Source of the DNA: Acetobacter nitrogenifigens DSM 23921 = NBRC 105050
GTDB lineage: Bacteria > Pseudomonadota > Alphaproteobacteria > Acetobacterales > Acetobacteraceae
Assembly: GCF_000429165.1 (NCBI RefSeq)
Contig: NZ_AUBI01000001.1
Location: forward strand, 434,001-498,000
DNA length: 64,000 bases
Direction of reading: 5' to 3'
In this document: positions 8,785-64,000 of the stretch, in pieces
How positions within the stretch are numbered: position 1 is the first letter of the stretch
Layout of the letters: every line of letters starts with the position of its first letter
Made by a program: the position numbers and the translations under genes
Notes under the pieces: model-generated
The model's database searches: none
What the model was told of the DNA's origin: nothing
Seen by the model: the letters and a program-made list of their open reading frames with translations, nothing else

Positions 8785-9423
8785 ATGACCGGCTCCGCTC
8801 CCGGCGCCGCGGCGCCCTCCCATCCGGAAAACCCGCCGCGCAGAGATCTTCTGACGCTCGTGACGGCCTCCACCGTCGCGGTCGGCGCAGGCGCACTTTG
8901 CTGGCCGTTTTTGGAAAGCCTCGTCCCTCCTGACTCCAGCGTCGCCAACGTACCCATCGACGTGGATCTGTCCACGCTCGCCGTAGGGCAGCAGGTGGCG
9001 GTGGTCTGGCGATCAAACCCGATATTCATCACGAGACGCTCGCCTCAGGCGCTGGAGAAACTGAAAACACCCGAACTGCGGGCTCGCCTGCGCGATCCTG
9101 ACTCAAAAGCATTGCAACAGCCGCCCTACGCCACGAATTGGCACCGGTCTCTCTCACCCGAATATGGCGTGCTCGTAGGCGTCTGCACCCATCTGGGCTG
9201 CGTCCCCGCATATGCTTCGGGGGCCACGGACCCGATGCGGCGCGGTTACGCATGCCCATGCCACGGTTCGAAATTCGATCTCGCGGGCCGCGTCTTCACC
9301 GGCGTTCCAGCGCCCTATAACTTGCCCGTTCCGCCGCACCGGATGCTTTCGCCCAACCACCTTCGGATCGGAGAAAACCCTCCCGGCGCCACGTTCGATT
9401 TCTCCGACATCGTGCAAATCTGA
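8785..9423 (+). CDS. petA: Rieske iron-sulfur subunit of cytochrome bc1
   Basis: This 212-residue subunit carries the 2Fe-2S centre that passes electrons from ubiquinol to cytochrome c1. A twin-arginine start ([10 protein letters not shown]) precedes one membrane helix. The cluster motifs are CTHLGC (C134, H136, C139) and CPCHGS (C157, C159, H160). C134, H136, C157 and H160 are the expected ligands and C139-C159 the disulfide. Cytochrome b and c1 genes do not follow, which is unusual because petABC is normally one operon. A small secreted protein gene comes next instead. Confidence 0.92.
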
Positions 9424-10376: not shown

Positions 10377-11975
10377 ATGCCAGAGCACGAGACGGCCGCC
10401 ACGCGGCGACAACTCCTGTCGCGAATAGGGGCGGTTGCTGGCGCCGGAGCCCTTTATCAGGCGATGACGAGCCTCGGTCATGCTGCGGCGAGTGATTTCG
10501 TCAACCCGCCCAAGTTGTCTGGCGCTCGGCCGGGAACAAGCGTTCTGATCCTTGGCTCTGGCCTGGCAGGCATGGTCGCCGCCTATGAGTTGCAAAAAGC
10601 TGGATATAAAGTTCAAATTCTTGAATATCAAAATCGAGCCGGAGGTCGGAATTTTTCCCTTCGCGGCGGAGACACCTTTGAAGAGCTGGGCGGCGCCGTC
10701 CAGCATGTGGGTTTTGCTCAAGGCAATTACTTCAATCCTGGCCCATGGCGGATACCCTATCATCATCAGGCCGTCCTGCATTACTGCCGTACGCTTGGCG
10801 TCGCACTGGAACCTTTTGTCCAGGTCAACCACAACGCCTACGTGCATTCAAGCACGGCGTTCAATGGCGCACCGCAAAGGTATCGCGTAGTAGACGCCGA
10901 TTACTCTGGTTATGTTTCAGAGCTTTTGGCAAAATCTTTAAATCAGCACGCACTGGACAATGAAATCAGCGCTGATGAGCGAGAGCATATTCTACAGTCG
11001 CTAAAAAGTTGCGGCATGCTCGACGCCTCTTATGCCTACAAGAAAAGCGATCTGACTTCGATGCGTCGAGGTTACGAAAAGCCGCCCGGCGGCGGTCTGG
11101 ACGGCCCGTCCATCGCATCGACGCCACTCTCCAGAGGCGACATTTTCAGCTCTGGCCTATGGCAGGCAATTTCCGTAAACTCGCTTCTCAATCATCAGAC
11201 GAGTATGTTTCAACCTGTCGGCGGCATGGATCAAATCGGGAAAGCGTTTCAAAAACAGTTGCAAAATGTCATCAACCTACGGTGCAAGGTCACCGCAATT
11301 CACCAGGATGATTCAGGCGTATCCGTTACATACACTGATGACGCGCATGGAAGCGTCACTCGTATAGCAAAAGCCGACTACTGTATTTGCACTATCCCAC
11401 TGTCCATTTTGTCTCAGCTTGACATTCAGGTGAGCGGATCGATGCGTGCAGCAATCGCCGCCGTGCCTTACGCGCCAGCCATAAAGATCGGGTTGGAATT
11501 TAACCGCAGATTCTGGGAGGAAGACGAGCAGATATATGGCGGAATTTCTTTCACTGACTTGCCAATTACACAAATATCTTACCCAAGCACGAAATACTTT
11601 TCCAATGGCAAGGCCGTTCTTCTCGGAGCCTATCTGTGGGAAGACGTGCAGGCGTTTCGTTTTGCCGGCATGACGCCCGCCGAGCGAATCGAAGCATCGA
11701 TAGCTTCGGGTGAAAAAATTCATAAGCAATACCGCAAGGAATACTCATCCGGCGTCGCCGTCGCCTGGAGCCGCGTCCCGTGGGCTATGGGATGCTCTTC
11801 AATCTGGAGTGAGCAGCGCCGCAAGGATCACTATAAAAACCTGTGCACTATGGACAATCGTATTGTTCTTGCGGGCGAGCACGCTTCTTACATAGGTGGG
11901 TGGCAGGAGGGATCCATGCTTTCCTCCATTAACGCAATTGAGCAGCTGCACAAGCGCGCTTCGGGAGTCGGTTAA
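10377..11975 (+). CDS. Tat-exported flavin amine oxidoreductase, copy 1
   Basis: This 532-residue protein of the flavin monoamine oxidase superfamily begins with a twin-arginine signal (ATRRQLLSRIGAVAGAGALY), so it is probably exported folded with FAD. The dinucleotide fold VLILGSGLAG has its glycines at 60-65 and is followed by EYQNRAGGRN. A lysine in AIKIGLEFNRRFW corresponds to the conserved amine-oxidase lysine, and the C-terminal FAD motif is AGEHASYIGGWQEG. The stop overlaps the next cytochrome c start by one base. It is clearly paralogous to the protein at 60054-61655 but is encoded with more AT-ending codons. Substrate is unknown; amines or amino acids are the family expectation. Confidence 0.85.
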   Translation: MPEHETAATRRQLLSRIGAVAGAGALYQAMTSLGHAAASDFVNPPKLSGARPGTSVLILGSGLAGMVAAYELQKAGYKVQILEYQNRAGGRNFSLRGGDTFEELGGAVQHVGFAQGNYFNPGPWRIPYHHQAVLHYCRTLGVALEPFVQVNHNAYVHSSTAFNGAPQRYRVVDADYSGYVSELLAKSLNQHALDNEISADEREHILQSLKSCGMLDASYAYKKSDLTSMRRGYEKPPGGGLDGPSIASTPLSRGDIFSSGLWQAISVNSLLNHQTSMFQPVGGMDQIGKAFQKQLQNVINLRCKVTAIHQDDSGVSVTYTDDAHGSVTRIAKADYCICTIPLSILSQLDIQVSGSMRAAIAAVPYAPAIKIGLEFNRRFWEEDEQIYGGISFTDLPITQISYPSTKYFSNGKAVLLGAYLWEDVQAFRFAGMTPAERIEASIASGEKIHKQYRKEYSSGVAVAWSRVPWAMGCSSIWSEQRRKDHYKNLCTMDNRIVLAGEHASYIGGWQEGSMLSSINAIEQLHKRASGVG

Positions 11976-12391
11976 TGCAAAAATTCGCTCTCATGATGAT
12001 AGCATTAGCCTGCCTTCCCAACGCCGCACGGGCGGATAGCGCTGATGCGATTACGAAAAACAAGCTGACGACAACTGACGGTCGTGTCCTGTATCAGACG
12101 CTATGCCAGGGATGCCATATGGCGGACGCAAGAGGGGCGGAAGGAGTTGCTCATTTTCCTTCATTAAGTGAAAACCCTAAACTAGCGTCGGGCAGTTATC
12201 CTGCTTACGTCGTCGCAAACGGGTTCGGCGGAATGCCGTGGTTTGCGGACAAGCTGTCCGACAATCAAATCGCAGCTATCGTGAATTACGTGCGAACACA
12301 TTTCGGCAATCACTACACGGATGTCTTGAAGCCCTCAGATGTCGCAAAGGTTCGACCATCGGCGGAGTCGATTAAGCCAATTTTTGACTAA
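11975..12391 (+). CDS. Periplasmic class I cytochrome c, partner of copy 1
   Basis: This 138-residue protein has a signal peptide (MQKFALMMIALACLPNAARA), one haem-binding motif CQGCH (C44-H48) and a probable axial methionine in GGMPWF (M87). The cytochrome c fold ends with DNQIAAIVNYVRTHFG. It overlaps the oxidoreductase by one base, so the two are translationally coupled. The natural inference is that it accepts electrons from that flavoprotein in the periplasm. Its paralogue at 61655 occupies the same relative position. Confidence 0.88.
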   Translation: MQKFALMMIALACLPNAARADSADAITKNKLTTTDGRVLYQTLCQGCHMADARGAEGVAHFPSLSENPKLASGSYPAYVVANGFGGMPWFADKLSDNQIAAIVNYVRTHFGNHYTDVLKPSDVAKVRPSAESIKPIFD

Positions 12392-58342: not shown

Positions 58343-59215
58343 ATGACTCAGCCCGACCTTCTGCCCACTCTCGAACGCATCGCAGCCGCGCTGGAGCGTA
58401 TGTCCCCGCCCCCTCCTTCGCTGGATGGCCTCTCCACCGCCGACGCGTTCGTCTGGCGCCCCGAGAGCGGCAAGCTGGATCCTGTCGCGCACGTCGCCCA
58501 TGTCGACATCGGTTTGCTCCGAGGCGTTGAATCTCAGCAAACCACCCTTCTGGAGAACACGCGCCACTTCGCGCGCGGCCTCTCGGCCAACAATGCGATG
58601 CTCTGGGGATCGCGCGGCATGGGCAAATCCTCGCTCGTGAAGGCCTGCCACGCGTCCGTGAACGCCGAATTTGGCGCCACCCCGCCCGGCGAAGGCAAGC
58701 TCGCTCTGGTGGAGATCGAACGCGAGGATCTGTCCACGCTGCCCGAACTGCTCGGACTGCTCCGCCGCGCGCCGCGTTCTTTCATCGTGTTTTGCGACGA
58801 CCTCTCCTTCGAGCGCGAAGACCGCGATTACAAGGCGCTGAAATCTGTGCTCGACGGCGGCATCTCCGGCCGCCCCGCCAACGTGCTGTTCTACGCGACG
58901 TCCAACCGGCGCCACCTCATGCCCCGCGAGATGATCGACAACGAACGCGCCACCGCCATCAACCCGTCGGAAGCCACAGAAGAAAAGGTATCGCTGTCGG
59001 ACCGCTTCGGACTGTGGCTCGGCTTTCATCCCTGCTCGCAGGACACATTCCTGGAAATGGTGCGCGGTTATGCCCGTGAGCAGTCGCTCAGGATCGCTGA
59101 CGAAGACCTGTGTATGCGCGCCAACGCGTGGTCGATCTCTCGCGGCGGCCGCTCGGGGCGTGTCGCGCAACAATTCATCGACGACCTCTCAGCCACGTTG
59201 AGCACGGAAGCATAG
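58343..59215 (+). CDS. DUF815 AAA-type ATPase
   Basis: This 290-residue cytoplasmic protein has Walker A GSRGMGKSS near residue 92, Walker B FIVFCDDLSFE and the following LFYATSNRRHLMPREMIDNE, all typical of DUF815. The family is widespread in alphaproteobacteria but has no settled function. The start at 58343 is preceded by AGGAAAG; the frame is open far upstream. It is divergent from yajC. A 7-bp tandem repeat begins six bases after the stop. Confidence 0.85.
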   Translation: MTQPDLLPTLERIAAALERMSPPPPSLDGLSTADAFVWRPESGKLDPVAHVAHVDIGLLRGVESQQTTLLENTRHFARGLSANNAMLWGSRGMGKSSLVKACHASVNAEFGATPPGEGKLALVEIEREDLSTLPELLGLLRRAPRSFIVFCDDLSFEREDRDYKALKSVLDGGISGRPANVLFYATSNRRHLMPREMIDNERATAINPSEATEEKVSLSDRFGLWLGFHPCSQDTFLEMVRGYAREQSLRIADEDLCMRANAWSISRGGRSGRVAQQFIDDLSATLSTEA

Positions 59216-59220
59216 AAGAG

Positions 59221-59313
59221 GTCGGGCGTCGGGCGTCGGGCGTCGGGCGTCGGGCGTCGGGCGTCGGGCGTCGGGCGTCGGGCGTCGGGCGTCGGGCGTC
59301 GGGCGTCGGGCGT
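59221..59313. repeat. 7-bp tandem repeat, about 13 copies
   Basis: The unit GTCGGGC is repeated 13 times plus a partial unit without a mismatch, directly after the DUF815 gene. A seven-base unit would shift the reading frame with each copy change, but here it lies outside any supported gene. It could form secondary structure and affect mRNA 3' end stability, or be a neutral slippage tract. Confidence 0.95.
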
Positions 59314-60053
59314 AAATGTACAACATACTCCCGATACACAAAAAACTATTCGATAAGAGATAAGGGAAGAATACACAGCTACGCAGCAGCGGATGACCGC
59401 AACTGCAGCGCGCCAGCTTTCCCATGATCCACACGACGTCTCCTCACGGAGGCGCCCGGCGCTTTCAGGACGAAGCTATAACGCGCCATACTGGAAGCCC
59501 ATACGCATAACTTTGCGCAGATCACATACCTTCGGAAAATGTCATATTCGGAACATTATAAATCAAAAAAAACAACCATCCAATGCGCCCGAGGAAAAAC
59601 GTGCCGCCATTGACGGACGAAACGCGTAATTTCTGAAAATATCTGTAAATACTTGTGCAATGTGCGTTTTGCGAACGTTCGCCCGCAACACACCATCGCA
59701 CCTGCCCGCCTCAACCCGACAAAACACCCGAAAATCGACTATATTCCGCCCCACGGCCTCGGCGCCAACCGCCGAGACAAGTCATCGCTCCGGTCGACCG
59801 ATCCAGCCCCATGTCCTGAACGGCCCCCGCCCATTGTCCTATTCGCCGGACGTTTTGCGGCGCCGCCCCGACACCCCCCGTCTCCTCTTATTAAACAATT
59901 ATTTCATTAAATCGGGACGCCCGTTGCAAAGCGGACACGCCCCGAAACCATAGCCATGCACGCGTTCGCGATCTGATTTGCAAGGGCGATCAATCCGTGT
60001 AGGGAATGTTCCCGACCGAGAAACATACACCAACCTACCACCAAGGACTTTGC
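59314..60053. other. Intergenic region before the second oxidoreductase module
   Basis: About 740 bases without a supportable gene. A locally AT-rich stretch around 59540-59580 is a candidate promoter region. Short frames here have neither ribosome binding sites nor protein-like composition. AAGGA before 60054 serves the next gene. Confidence 0.5.
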
Positions 60054-61655
60054 ATGACGGACGTTCATCAGCACGCCGCGCCAACGCGTCGGCAGATGCT
60101 GACCCGTATCGGGTTGCTCGCCGGAAGCGCCGGTCTCTATCAGGCGATGACCAGCATGGGTCACGCGATGGGCACCGACTTCAAGGGCTCACCCGACCTT
60201 AAAGGCGCCAAGAAAGGCACCCGCGTCGTCATCCTCGGCTCCGGTCTGGCCGGAATGCTGGCCGCATATGAACTGCGAAAAGCCGGTTACGCCGTGCAGA
60301 TCATCGAGTACCAGAACCGAGCGGGCGGGCGAAACATCACGCTCCGCGGCGGCGACGTCGTCAACGAACTCGGCGGTTACACCCAGAAGGTCGGCTTCGC
60401 TCCGGGCAACTATATCAACCCCGGTCCGTGGCGCATTCCCTACCACCATCAGGGTCTGCTGCATTACTGTCAGGAATTCGGCGTAGCGCTCGAGCCGTTC
60501 GTGGAACTCAACCACAACAGCTACCTGCATTCGTCCGCCATGTTCGGCGGCAAGCCGGTTCGGTATCGTGACTATGCCTCCGATTTCACCGGTTACACAG
60601 CGGAACTGCTGGCCAAAGCCATCGACCAGCACAAGCTGGACGACGTCATGTCCAAGGACGAGCGCGAGCATGTCGGGGCCGCGATGCGCGGCTGGGCCGG
60701 GCTCGAGAATAACGGCGCATGGGTGAAAGGCGTCCGCAGTTCCCTCCGTCGTGGCTTCGAGCGTCCCCAGGGCGGCGGCATCGACGGCGAACCCATTCCG
60801 TCCGACCTCCTGCCCCGCGACGAAATCATGAAGTCGGGTTTGTGGCAGTTCATGTCGTTCCATGAACGCCTCGACATGCAGACGACCATGTTCCAGCCGG
60901 TCGGCGGCATGGATAATATCGGCAAGGGCTTCATCAAGCAGGTTCACGACCTGATCACGCTGAACTGCAAGGTGACGGCGATCCATCAGGACGATCACGG
61001 CGTGAAGGTGTCCTACGCGGATATGGCCCATGGCGGCGCAATGCGCGAAGTCGAAGCCGATTACTGCGTCTGCACCATCCCGCTTCCGGTCCTGTCGCAG
61101 CTCGACGTGCAGGTCAGCGGTCCGTTGAAAGCCGCGATCTCGGCGGTTCCCTATGCGTCTTCCGTGAAACTCGGCCTCGAGTTCAAGCGCCGCTTCTGGG
61201 AGCAGGATGAACAGATTTACGGCGGCATCAGCTTCACCGACCAACCGATCAGCCAGATCTCCTACCCGTCCGGCGGCATCTTCTCCAAAGGCCCCGGCGT
61301 GCTGCTTGGCGGCTACATGTTCGGCCCCGCCGCATACGACTTCGCAGGCATGACGCCCGAACAGCGCGTTCAGGCGGGCATCGAACAAGGCCTCAAGATT
61401 CATCCGCAGTATCGCGAAGAGTTTTCCAACGGCGTCGGCTTCGCATGGAGCCGCATGCCATGGACGCTCGGCTGCTGCAGCATGTGGTCCGAGCAGGCGC
61501 GCAAGCAGCACTACAAAGCGCTGGTCACGATGGACAACCGCATCGTGCTCGCTGGCGAGCACGCGTCCTACGTGGGTTGCTGGCAGGAAGGCGCCATCCT
61601 GTCCTCGCTCGCGGCGATCACCTCCCTGCACAAACGCGCCATCGGAGCCGCCTGA
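60054..61655 (+). CDS. Tat-exported flavin amine oxidoreductase, copy 2
   Basis: This 533-residue protein is the paralogue of that at 10377-11975. The Tat signal is PTRRQMLTRIGLLAGSAGLY, the FAD fold VVILGSGLAGMLAAYELRKA, and the conserved lysine lies in SSVKLGLEFKRRFW. The C-terminal FAD motif is AGEHASYVGCWQEGA. Landmarks such as NPGPWRIPYHHQ and TTMFQPVGGMD are nearly identical in both copies. The start at 60054 is fixed by AAGGA seven bases upstream. Its stop overlaps a cytochrome c start. Codon use is GC-rich like the rest of the chromosome, unlike copy 1. Confidence 0.88.
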   Translation: MTDVHQHAAPTRRQMLTRIGLLAGSAGLYQAMTSMGHAMGTDFKGSPDLKGAKKGTRVVILGSGLAGMLAAYELRKAGYAVQIIEYQNRAGGRNITLRGGDVVNELGGYTQKVGFAPGNYINPGPWRIPYHHQGLLHYCQEFGVALEPFVELNHNSYLHSSAMFGGKPVRYRDYASDFTGYTAELLAKAIDQHKLDDVMSKDEREHVGAAMRGWAGLENNGAWVKGVRSSLRRGFERPQGGGIDGEPIPSDLLPRDEIMKSGLWQFMSFHERLDMQTTMFQPVGGMDNIGKGFIKQVHDLITLNCKVTAIHQDDHGVKVSYADMAHGGAMREVEADYCVCTIPLPVLSQLDVQVSGPLKAAISAVPYASSVKLGLEFKRRFWEQDEQIYGGISFTDQPISQISYPSGGIFSKGPGVLLGGYMFGPAAYDFAGMTPEQRVQAGIEQGLKIHPQYREEFSNGVGFAWSRMPWTLGCCSMWSEQARKQHYKALVTMDNRIVLAGEHASYVGCWQEGAILSSLAAITSLHKRAIGAA

Positions 61656-62083
61656 TGCGTTCTTATCTTCTCGCCGCACTCGCCGTCGCCGCGACAGCTG
61701 TTCCCGTGCTGACAGCAGGACAGGCCCACGCGGACTCCGCCAGCTCTGTCGTTGGCCGCGTACAGCCGCTCAACACCGGCGCCGCCGTCTATGAGCACGT
61801 CTGTCAGGGTTGTCATATGCCCGGCGGCAAGGGCGCGGCCGGGGCGAGTTCGGGCTTTCCCGCATTCGCTGGCGACGGACGCCTGCAAAGCGCCGGATAC
61901 CCTGTTTACATGGTATTGAACGGCCGTGCGGGCATGCCCTGGTTCGCAGGCATGCTTTCGGACAAGCAGATTGCGGATGTCGTCAATTATATTCGCACGA
62001 GCTTCGGCAACCATTTCGATGGAACCGTGAAGCCGGAGGATGTTGCGAAGATGCGGCAGCCCGTTCAGATGGAAGAGCAATAA
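61655..62083 (+). CDS. Periplasmic class I cytochrome c, partner of copy 2
   Basis: This 142-residue protein has a signal peptide (MRSYLLAALAVAATAVPVLT, cleavage near AHA), haem motif CQGCH (C50-H54) and a likely methionine ligand in RAGMPWF. It ends with DKQIADVVNYIRTSFG like its paralogue at 11975. The start overlaps the oxidoreductase stop by one base, and the ridA gene follows after three bases. It is probably the electron acceptor of the flavoprotein. Confidence 0.9.
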   Translation: MRSYLLAALAVAATAVPVLTAGQAHADSASSVVGRVQPLNTGAAVYEHVCQGCHMPGGKGAAGASSGFPAFAGDGRLQSAGYPVYMVLNGRAGMPWFAGMLSDKQIADVVNYIRTSFGNHFDGTVKPEDVAKMRQPVQMEEQ

Positions 62084-62086
62084 GCA

Positions 62087-62602
62087 ATGAACTCCACGAT
62101 CCGTAACCTGACTTTCGCGATCGCCAGCGTCGCCGCCATCGGCGCCGCCAGCGCGTCCGCCGCCGACGGCGTCGTCCGACACACCGACCCGGCGGGCCAC
62201 TTCCCGATCGCTCAGGCCATCGAAGTGCCGCCCGGCGCCTCGACGATCTATCTCAGCGGTATGGGTTCCCCACCGACGAACAAATCGGCGGACCCGAAGA
62301 CCCTCGCCGCCTATGGCGACACGGAGACGCAGACCCGCGGCGCGCTGGAGAAAATTCAGGACGCTCTCGCCAAGCTGAACCTGACGATGGGCGACGTCGT
62401 GCAGATGCACATGTACATGGTCACGGACCCGAAGCTCGGCAAGCTCGATTTCGCAGGCATGATGAAGGCTTACACGCAGTTCTTCGGGACGGCAGCGCAG
62501 CCTAACCTGCCGGTTCGCTCCGCGTTCGAAGTCGCTCACCTCGCCAACCCCGGCTGGCTCATCGAAATCGAAGTCACCGCCGTTCGGGCGCCTCATTCAT
62601 AA
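62087..62602 (+). CDS. RidA family protein with signal peptide
   Basis: This 171-residue protein has a signal peptide (LTFAIASVAAIGAASASA) followed by a RidA/YjgF domain. RidA hydrolyses reactive enamines and imines. The arginine that binds the substrate carboxylate in E. coli RidA (Arg105) matches the one in PVRSAFEVAHL, and the glutamate in LIEIEVTAV is also kept. RidA is usually cytoplasmic, so a secreted form next to an exported amine oxidoreductase suggests clearance of its imine product in the periplasm. Copy 1 of the module has no such gene. Confidence 0.85.
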   Translation: MNSTIRNLTFAIASVAAIGAASASAADGVVRHTDPAGHFPIAQAIEVPPGASTIYLSGMGSPPTNKSADPKTLAAYGDTETQTRGALEKIQDALAKLNLTMGDVVQMHMYMVTDPKLGKLDFAGMMKAYTQFFGTAAQPNLPVRSAFEVAHLANPGWLIEIEVTAVRAPHS

Positions 62603-62742: not shown

Positions 62743-64000
62743 ATGGACCAGTTTCTTCCGACCGAAAGTCACTCAGAATCCGTCGAGGTATGCCTCGATC
62801 CCGCGAACGCGGCCACGGATTCCAAAACGTCGACGGACGCCAGTGACGCCGAAAATCGGTCCGTATCTCCAAACAGCGCCTCCGGGCAGGACCTTCGCCG
62901 CATCCACTGCGATCCGGATTTCTGGTATCCCGTCGCCTGGAGCCGCGAACTGAGGCGCGGCAAGGTTATCGCCACGCGTTACGCCGGGCATCCGATAGCG
63001 CTTGTCAGACCTGACGAAGGCCCCGTCTTCGCTCTCGAAGATCGCTGCGCTCACCGGCAGGTCCCGCTCAGCAAGGGGCGAGTGTGCGGGCAATCCGTTC
63101 AATGTTGCTACCATGGCTGGGCCTATGGCCGCTCAGGTCGCTGCATTGATGTGCCGTATCTCGGCAAAGGCAAACTGCCGAACGGCGTACGCACCTATCC
63201 GGTGCGGGAACAGGACGGCCTGATCTTCGTCTTTCCCGGAGACCCTGAAAAGGCCGCCGCCACGCCACTACGCCGCGAATTGGCTCAAAGTAACAACGCA
63301 GCCTACAAAACCCGCCGTTTTGGGCGACATGTCGCCTGCCACTACAGTTTCATGCACGAGAACCTGATGGATATGAACCATCAGTTCATGCACATGAAAC
63401 AGATGGGGCAAATGCGCCCTCGCTTCCTCGGCCAGAAGCGCGAGCCCGGTCTGGTTGAAGCGCGCTACAGTTTCGCGCGTACCAGTGGCAAGCAGCCCCT
63501 CGGCGAGGCCCTGATTTTCGGAGAACGTCGCGACGCGTCGGCCAAGTACGCAGACCGCGATGTCATGACGATCCGCACCGAATACCCGTTCCAGACGCTG
63601 CGAATCCAGACCGGCGACGAAGCCCCCGTCATGGACCTGTGGATCGCTTACACGCCGCAGGACGCGGACCAACTCACCAACCGCACTTTCGGCCTGCTGT
63701 CGGTCAAGAAGCCTGGCGTCCCCGGCCTGCTCGACCTCGCATGGCCGTTCCTTGTGGCGTTCACCGAGCGTATTTTCGCGGAGGACCGCGAAATCGTCGA
63801 GCTCGAACAAAAAGCGTGGAATGAACTGGGCGGCGATCACAATCAGGAAGTCTTCCCCGTGATCAACGCGCTCCGCAGCCTGCTCGCCGAATGCGGCGTG
63901 CAGCCGGGCGCTTCAACGCCGGGCAGTTCGCCACAAGAGGCATCCCCGCCGTCCTCCTCGTCACAAGGCCGGGAAGACGCCGCCGCCGCTCCTGTCTCGC
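62743..64000 (+). CDS. Rieske non-heme iron oxygenase, C-terminus outside window
   Basis: An open frame from 62743 to the window end (419 codons so far) encodes the alpha subunit of a Rieske oxygenase. The 2Fe-2S site shows CAHRQVPLS and CCYHGW, and the mononuclear iron site shows ENLMDMNHQFMH with aspartate and two histidines. A 60-residue polar N-terminal extension precedes FWYPVAWSRELRRG. The ATG is preceded by AAGGGG. It follows ridA by 140 nt. The stop is not in the window, and the last codons are Pro/Ser/Ala-rich. The substrate is unknown. Confidence 0.85.
   Translation, partial: MDQFLPTESHSESVEVCLDPANAATDSKTSTDASDAENRSVSPNSASGQDLRRIHCDPDFWYPVAWSRELRRGKVIATRYAGHPIALVRPDEGPVFALEDRCAHRQVPLSKGRVCGQSVQCCYHGWAYGRSGRCIDVPYLGKGKLPNGVRTYPVREQDGLIFVFPGDPEKAAATPLRRELAQSNNAAYKTRRFGRHVACHYSFMHENLMDMNHQFMHMKQMGQMRPRFLGQKREPGLVEARYSFARTSGKQPLGEALIFGERRDASAKYADRDVMTIRTEYPFQTLRIQTGDEAPVMDLWIAYTPQDADQLTNRTFGLLSVKKPGVPGLLDLAWPFLVAFTERIFAEDREIVELEQKAWNELGGDHNQEVFPVINALRSLLAECGVQPGASTPGSSPQEASPPSSSSQGREDAAAAPVS

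Follow-up and report, generated by a model that had tools for sequence, protein, structure and literature searches.

A gene for a flavin-dependent amine oxidoreductase in Acetobacter nitrogenifigens DSM 23921 is followed, almost without a gap, by genes for a small cytochrome c and a Rid-family protein, raising the question of what this trio oxidizes and where its electrons go. The three genes lie near the end of a 64,000-nucleotide stretch of contig NZ_AUBI01000001.1, hereafter the window (Table 1). The initial annotation of this DNA saw in them a periplasmic amine or amino-acid dehydrogenase that passes its electrons to a dedicated cytochrome c instead of oxygen, with RidA hydrolysing the reactive imine, and knew of no named system of this kind. 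It had picked out a real and conserved unit with a sensible chemistry; however, the cluster already bears a name, an amine is the less likely substrate, and the third protein is Rid3-like and not an obligate partner. From the sequences, and by analogy with assayed relatives, we consider it probable that the trio is an exported L-amino acid dehydrogenase that would give its electrons to the neighbouring cytochrome c, the Rid3-type protein hydrolysing the imino acid.

Relation to the lao-cccA-ridA cluster

The tight packing first described was confirmed: base 61655 is common to the TGA stop codon of the flavoenzyme gene and the ATG start codon of the cytochrome gene, a one-base overlap, and three bases (62084-62086) separate the latter from the Rid gene. 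A Shine-Dalgarno-like sequence supports the flavoenzyme start at 60054, a longer in-frame alternative being found at 60006; scans for promoters and terminators gave no signal above chance level. The Pfam matches are Amino_oxidase for the flavoenzyme (PF01593, 2.1e-49), Cytochrome_CBB3 for the cytochrome (1e-12) and Ribonuc_L-PSP for the Rid protein (3.7e-17). The closest named genome, that of Acetobacter sacchari TBRC 11175, encodes the three proteins with 100, 98 and 99% identity, respectively.

A cluster of this kind was published in 2016 from the sugarcane bacterium Gluconacetobacter diazotrophicus PAL5 as lao (GDI2456), cccA (GDI2455) and ridA (GDI2454) (PMC5053998). Two Tn5 insertions in lao led to strains that make no indole-3-acetic acid and leave tryptophan unmetabolised, and transcript levels of lao, cccA and ridA all fell in the one mutant examined; the authors proposed that the flavoenzyme is exported by the twin-arginine translocation (Tat) pathway, that the cytochrome acts in electron transfer and that the Rid protein hydrolyses the imine (PMC5053998). 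It is for PAL5 alone that co-transcription of the genes and their requirement in indole-3-acetic acid production have been shown or suggested (PMC5053998). A Fur box is predicted ahead of the nuo genes and of lao in PAL5 (PMC9368920). One published primer, sought in 14 genomes of the genus Gluconacetobacter, matched 11 of them with at most two mismatches (two exactly), and at one locus (L172) all six published primers matched without mismatch and in the published order. Identity between the window proteins and those of L172 is 78% for the flavoenzyme, 58% for the cytochrome and 79% for Rid (148 residues compared), and the genes agree with lao-cccA-ridA in order, strand and the homology of each member. 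The window trio is therefore a further case of the published cluster and not a new system, and the view that the combination had no name falls. The same roles for the cytochrome and RidA had already been proposed in PAL5 (PMC5053998). The two differ in genus and in the three further Rid-less pairs of the window genome, extra pairs having been counted on the window side alone. A periplasmic L-amino acid oxidase (LAAO) of Chlamydomonas with a RidA subunit likewise joins an amino-acid-oxidizing flavoenzyme to a Rid protein, but it is an algal complex, for which the account in PMC5053998 mentions no cytochrome c partner.

The flavoenzyme and its cytochrome c

Amino acid oxidases are the top matches of the flavoenzyme by both sequence and fold. 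It matches the fold of the Rhodococcus opacus LAAO (2jae) over 474 residues at 2.0 Å with 35% identity, and it keeps the equivalents of R. opacus Arg84, Gln228, Tyr371 and Trp467, which are present in 84, 83, 82 and 84, respectively, of the 84 flavoenzymes of the branch. We take Arg84 to be the carboxylate-binding residue and the other three to belong to the substrate site as well. Grouping with the LAAOs by sequence, fold and substrate-site residues, the flavoenzyme would favour an amino acid over an amine, and of the two substrates first suggested the amine thus appears the less likely. No NicA2 entry was found among the 50 fold matches listed, which neither supports nor excludes kinship with that enzyme. 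Relative to the R. opacus protein, the window enzyme differs by its Tat leader and cytochrome partner and by a Cys at the position of Trp426.

The expected secretion signals were borne out as motifs, all read from the sequences by eye and not with a signal predictor: in the flavoenzyme a twin-arginine motif (TRRQML, residues 11-16), and in the cytochrome and the Rid protein leaders resembling those of the general secretory (Sec) pathway. All three proteins are predicted to be exported. Across the branch the twin-arginine motif reads RR in 77 of 84 flavoenzymes and KR in seven.

To what extent the pairing with a cytochrome is conserved was assessed in three sets. At the best 80 of 115 loci with a flavoenzyme relative (the named loci), a cytochrome c gene lies directly 3' of the flavoenzyme gene in 78, the other two loci ending 91 and 4 bases past that gene, and the TGATG overlap is kept in 60. 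All 78 adjacent cytochromes keep CxxCH; the Met-ligand motif was recognised by pattern in 72 and the Met by eye in the remaining six. In the family sample, 37 of 150 genomes hold a relative at an E-value of 1e-60 or better, in 42 places, all of which were examined: 17 have the cytochrome and Rid, 10 the cytochrome only and 15 neither, the cytochrome being found in 26 of 26 places with at least 50% identity versus one of 16 with less. In the phylum sample, which scored at most three candidates per genome, 26 of 398 genomes contain relatives with E-values no higher than 1e-80, in 32 places; two of these lack a locus (G000:C2, seen as L007, and G419:C3), and the 30 examined comprise 17 with both partners, seven with the cytochrome only, four with Rid only and two with neither. 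In both samples the cytochromes were sought with a profile of the trio-type cytochrome, which an unrelated one could escape. The trio occurs in 12 families of the phylum sample beyond that of the window, 11 of them with the trio-type cytochrome. Thus, the three-gene neighbourhood expected across Acetobacteraceae holds, and chance proximity of flavoenzyme and cytochrome is ruled out by the adjacency in 78 of 80 and 26 of 26 cases.

The pairing recurs within the genome itself, which encodes four flavoenzymes of the branch, at 60054 and 10377 of the window and on contigs C2 and C6, the last three sharing 63, 62 and 57% identity with the first. By tblastn, each of the four is directly followed by a cytochrome c gene of its own, and a Rid gene was found beside the 60054 copy and beside none of the other three.

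Among more distant relatives, three flavoenzymes with 35-40% identity (L196, L197 and L199) stand with a Rid and a longer, dissimilar cytochrome c, encoded in open frames of 206-220 codons; they were counted as cytochrome-bearing and hint that cytochromes were recruited more than once. Four other distant relatives (L198, L202, L203 and L207) have a Rid and no adjoining trio-type cytochrome, and could be genuine oxidases paired with an imine hydrolase, which would make them a natural set for contrast.

The Rid protein

The third gene had been read as RidA. Its product is of the Rid imine-hydrolase type, but it scores 38.3 bits against a cut-off of 106.25 for NCBIfam TIGR00004, which we used as the model of the RidA type, and its nearest solved structures are the Rid3 proteins PFL_1385 (9bkc, 1.3e-32) and PSPTO_3006 (9bka, 4.4e-29). 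Rid3 proteins keep the catalytic Arg and Glu and have Ile in place of Tyr17 (PMC4433059); Ile, Arg and Glu are each present in 55 of 55 Rid proteins of our loci, with column equivalence judged by eye. By sequence, then, the protein is Rid3-like and lies outside the RidA subfamily. PFL_1385 and PSPTO_3006 hydrolyse imines made by LAAO in vitro (PMC5619798), and RidA, sometimes Rid3, genes generally cluster with amine oxidase genes (PMC4433059). On the window side, the only gene context compared, the Rid gene sits in a string with those of the flavoenzyme and the cytochrome.

Rid is an optional and not an obligate companion of the flavoenzyme-cytochrome pair. It lies 3' of the pair in 54 of the 80 named loci and 5' in one (L112), an upstream Rid being also seen at L183. 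The pair had no detected Rid neighbour in 23 of the 80, some of which reach contig ends early (in L111, L123, L124 and L126 the sequence stops 744-1459 bases beyond the flavoenzyme gene). A quick tree of 89 flavoenzymes, with Shimodaira-Hasegawa-like approximate likelihood ratio (SH-aLRT) support only and with L115 left out at its contig end, requires at least six changes of the Rid label, or seven counting the upstream Rid of L112. That Rid is an addition confined to Acetobacteraceae is ruled out by the phylum search, with the trio in 12 other families.

Cytochrome c as electron acceptor

Stopped-flow measurements have shown that many amine oxidoreductases with a Tat leader and a neighbouring cytochrome c gene (CytC) employ the cytochrome, whereas their reaction with O2 is poor, and that CytC adjacency is the better predictor of cytochrome use (PMC12224317). 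The enzymes of that study were drawn from the top 5000 BLAST hits of NicA2; the text searched, which omits many organism names, contains no mention of RidA or Acetobacter (PMC12224317). With its Amino_oxidase domain, twin-arginine motif and adjoining cytochrome c gene, the window flavoenzyme has the features of this class, and it shares Tat leader, neighbouring gene and flavin amine oxidoreductase fold with NicA2, Pnao and the three clades described there (PMC12224317). The window branch differs from NicA2 and Pnao in its resemblance to the LAAOs, its amino-acid substrate site and, in many cases, an accompanying Rid. The role of cytochrome c as acceptor is thus backed, by analogy, by the biochemistry of other flavin amine oxidoreductases (PMC12224317), and the trio likely works by the principle shown for these relatives. 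In the literature searched we found no paper jointly covering amino acid dehydrogenase, cytochrome c, RidA, periplasm and flavin.

Proposed pathway and alternative explanations

In the pathway we propose, an L-amino acid would transfer a hydride to flavin adenine dinucleotide (FAD), as suggested by the family and the conserved substrate-site residues; tryptophan is a candidate substrate, to which the G. diazotrophicus results point. By analogy with the assayed amine oxidoreductases, the reduced flavin would hand over its two electrons singly, each to a different molecule of the adjacent cytochrome c, and not to O2, while Rid3 would convert the imino acid into a 2-oxo acid and ammonia, in line with the assays of Rid3 proteins. 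In G. diazotrophicus the 2-oxo acid would be indole-3-pyruvate, en route to indole-3-acetic acid. The reduced cytochrome would feed the respiratory chain through cytochrome c oxidase where one is present, of CuA type in the window genome; in genomes without a detected one, the electrons would leave by another route.

This outlet is the interesting part of the trio. Electron sinks were sought in 14 trio-bearing genomes, 94-100% complete, absence meaning that no match was found. The CuA motif of cytochrome c oxidase subunit II occurs in eight, including the window's own (a 177-residue subunit II adjoining COX1 on contig C3), the cbb3 subunit FixO in one that also has CuA, cytochrome c1 in 13 and CCP_MauG in 10. 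The remaining six (G001, G009, G030, G056, G117 and G135) yielded no cytochrome c oxidase: all their COX2-family matches lack the CuA motif, the pattern expected of quinol oxidases, and their strong COX1 matches adjoin these COX2s, the rest being weak COX1-like extras. The CCP_MauG proteins of G000, G001, G009, G030, G117 and G135 carry three CxxCH sites, except that of G001, which has two; G056 has the trio and a match to neither cytochrome c oxidase nor CCP_MauG. A respiratory role of the cytochrome is therefore awkward, and the conserved pair in these genomes either points to an undiscovered outlet or cautions that O2 may be used after all. The respiratory chain of acetic acid bacteria has been described as possibly deranged at cytochrome c (PMC10715153).

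The six genomes thus weigh against a cytochrome-c-using dehydrogenase, as do several other observations. The Trp426 position, Cys in the window flavoenzyme, is variable across the branch, and all 84 flavoenzymes retain a Lys that we take to be the one near flavin N5 associated with O2 reactivity. Tat motifs are found in 12 of 15 (family) and six of six (phylum) cytochrome-less relatives, so that Tat alone proves nothing, and it is the cytochrome that marks the branch. In the literature searched we found no work assaying the acceptor, substrate or export of this branch, which leaves room for O2 use, and the PAL5 insertions also lowered downstream transcripts, complementation and the role of each gene being left by the authors to later study (PMC5053998).

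A first alternative is a periplasmic true LAAO reducing O2 to H2O2, with the cytochrome as a side acceptor or serving peroxide-clearing haem peroxidases. The nearest characterised relative, the R. opacus LAAO, is an oxidase, the presumed N5 Lys is kept, and genomes without a detected cytochrome c oxidase (6/14) stand beside a frequent CCP_MauG (10/14). On the other hand, such a Lys is also kept in nearly all dehydrogenases, and poor O2 use accompanied the Tat-plus-CytC combination in the assayed enzymes (PMC12224317); with the near-total cytochrome adjacency in the branch and the missing CCP_MauG match in G056, we regard an oxidase as rather unlikely. An exported amine dehydrogenase akin to NicA2 or the monoamine oxidases would explain the common Pfam superfamily and the Tat-plus-CytC layout (PMC12224317). 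It seems improbable given the amino acid oxidases among the top matches, the invariant equivalent of the presumed carboxylate-binding Arg (84/84) and the tryptophan left by the PAL5 mutants (PMC5053998). That the genes are mere neighbours without shared function, Rid serving general periplasmic imine clearance, would fit the Rid-less pairs (23/80 named loci and three of the four genome copies), but we hold it to be very improbable in view of the trio in 12 further families (11 with the trio-type cytochrome), the clustering of RidA and sometimes Rid3 with amine oxidase genes (PMC4433059) and the joint fall of the three transcripts in PAL5 (PMC5053998).

Returning to the cytochrome-c-using dehydrogenase, a more speculative extension, which we find possible though doubtful, is that an LAAO lineage turned to cytochrome c separately from NicA2 and Pnao and with an imine hydrolase of its own, and that in oxidase-less acetic acid bacteria electrons would pass from the cytochrome to the quinone pool or a haem peroxidase, an amino-acid respiration with no oxidase behind it.

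Other features of the window

Table 1. Features of the trio and of the second flavoenzyme-cytochrome pair, in window coordinates.
Feature	Position	Strand	Basis
Shine-Dalgarno-like AAGGA, 5' of flavoenzyme start	60043-60047	+	sequence
Flavoenzyme, lao homologue, 533 aa	60054-61655	+	Pfam, open reading frame
cccA homologue: small monohaem cytochrome c, predicted Sec-like leader, 142 aa, CQGCH haem site (codons 61802-61816), GMPWF Met region	61655-62083	+	Pfam, sequence
Rid3-type imine/enamine deaminase family protein, 171 aa, predicted Sec-like leader, Ile41/Arg144/Glu160	62087-62602	+	Pfam, structure matches
Second flavoenzyme of the same branch, predicted Tat leader, 63% identical to the 60054 copy	10377-11975	+	sequence comparison
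Cytochrome c partner of the second flavoenzyme, likewise with one-base overlap; no Rid found after it	11975-12391	+	sequence

About 1 kb before the second pair lies a gene for a bc1-type Rieske iron-sulfur protein (8785-9423, +; PF10399 and PF00355, both ligand boxes seen by eye). Cytochrome c1 is encoded on contig C18, where no Rieske box was seen in the surrounding 8 kb; the two perhaps form a split bc1 complex. Downstream of the trio, a Rieske oxygenase with a VanA_C domain (62743-63999) runs off the window; it weakly resembles SdmA, the 4beta-methylsterol monooxygenase, scoring 157.7 bits where the cut-off is 600, and such a gene lies 3' of the trio in six of the 80 named loci (L051-L054, L082 and L092). 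Upstream, a perfect 7-base tandem repeat (GTCGGGC, 13.3 copies, 59221-59313) lies just 3' of a DUF815 gene ending at 59215. Between 52629 and 57334 a TonB-dependent receptor (-) and a PepSY membrane protein (+) face each other across a small hydrophobic-looking open reading frame, an iron- or metal-uptake-like group.

Implications

Enzymes of the flavoenzyme's family are filed as H2O2-making oxidases. If the branch uses cytochrome c as we propose, a widely spread set of 'L-amino acid oxidases' would be misnamed and would make no peroxide, and the same would apply to the formation of indole-3-pyruvate in a plant-associated bacterium. The trio genomes in which no cytochrome c oxidase was detected make the purpose of cytochrome c in acetic acid bacteria (PMC10715153) directly testable.
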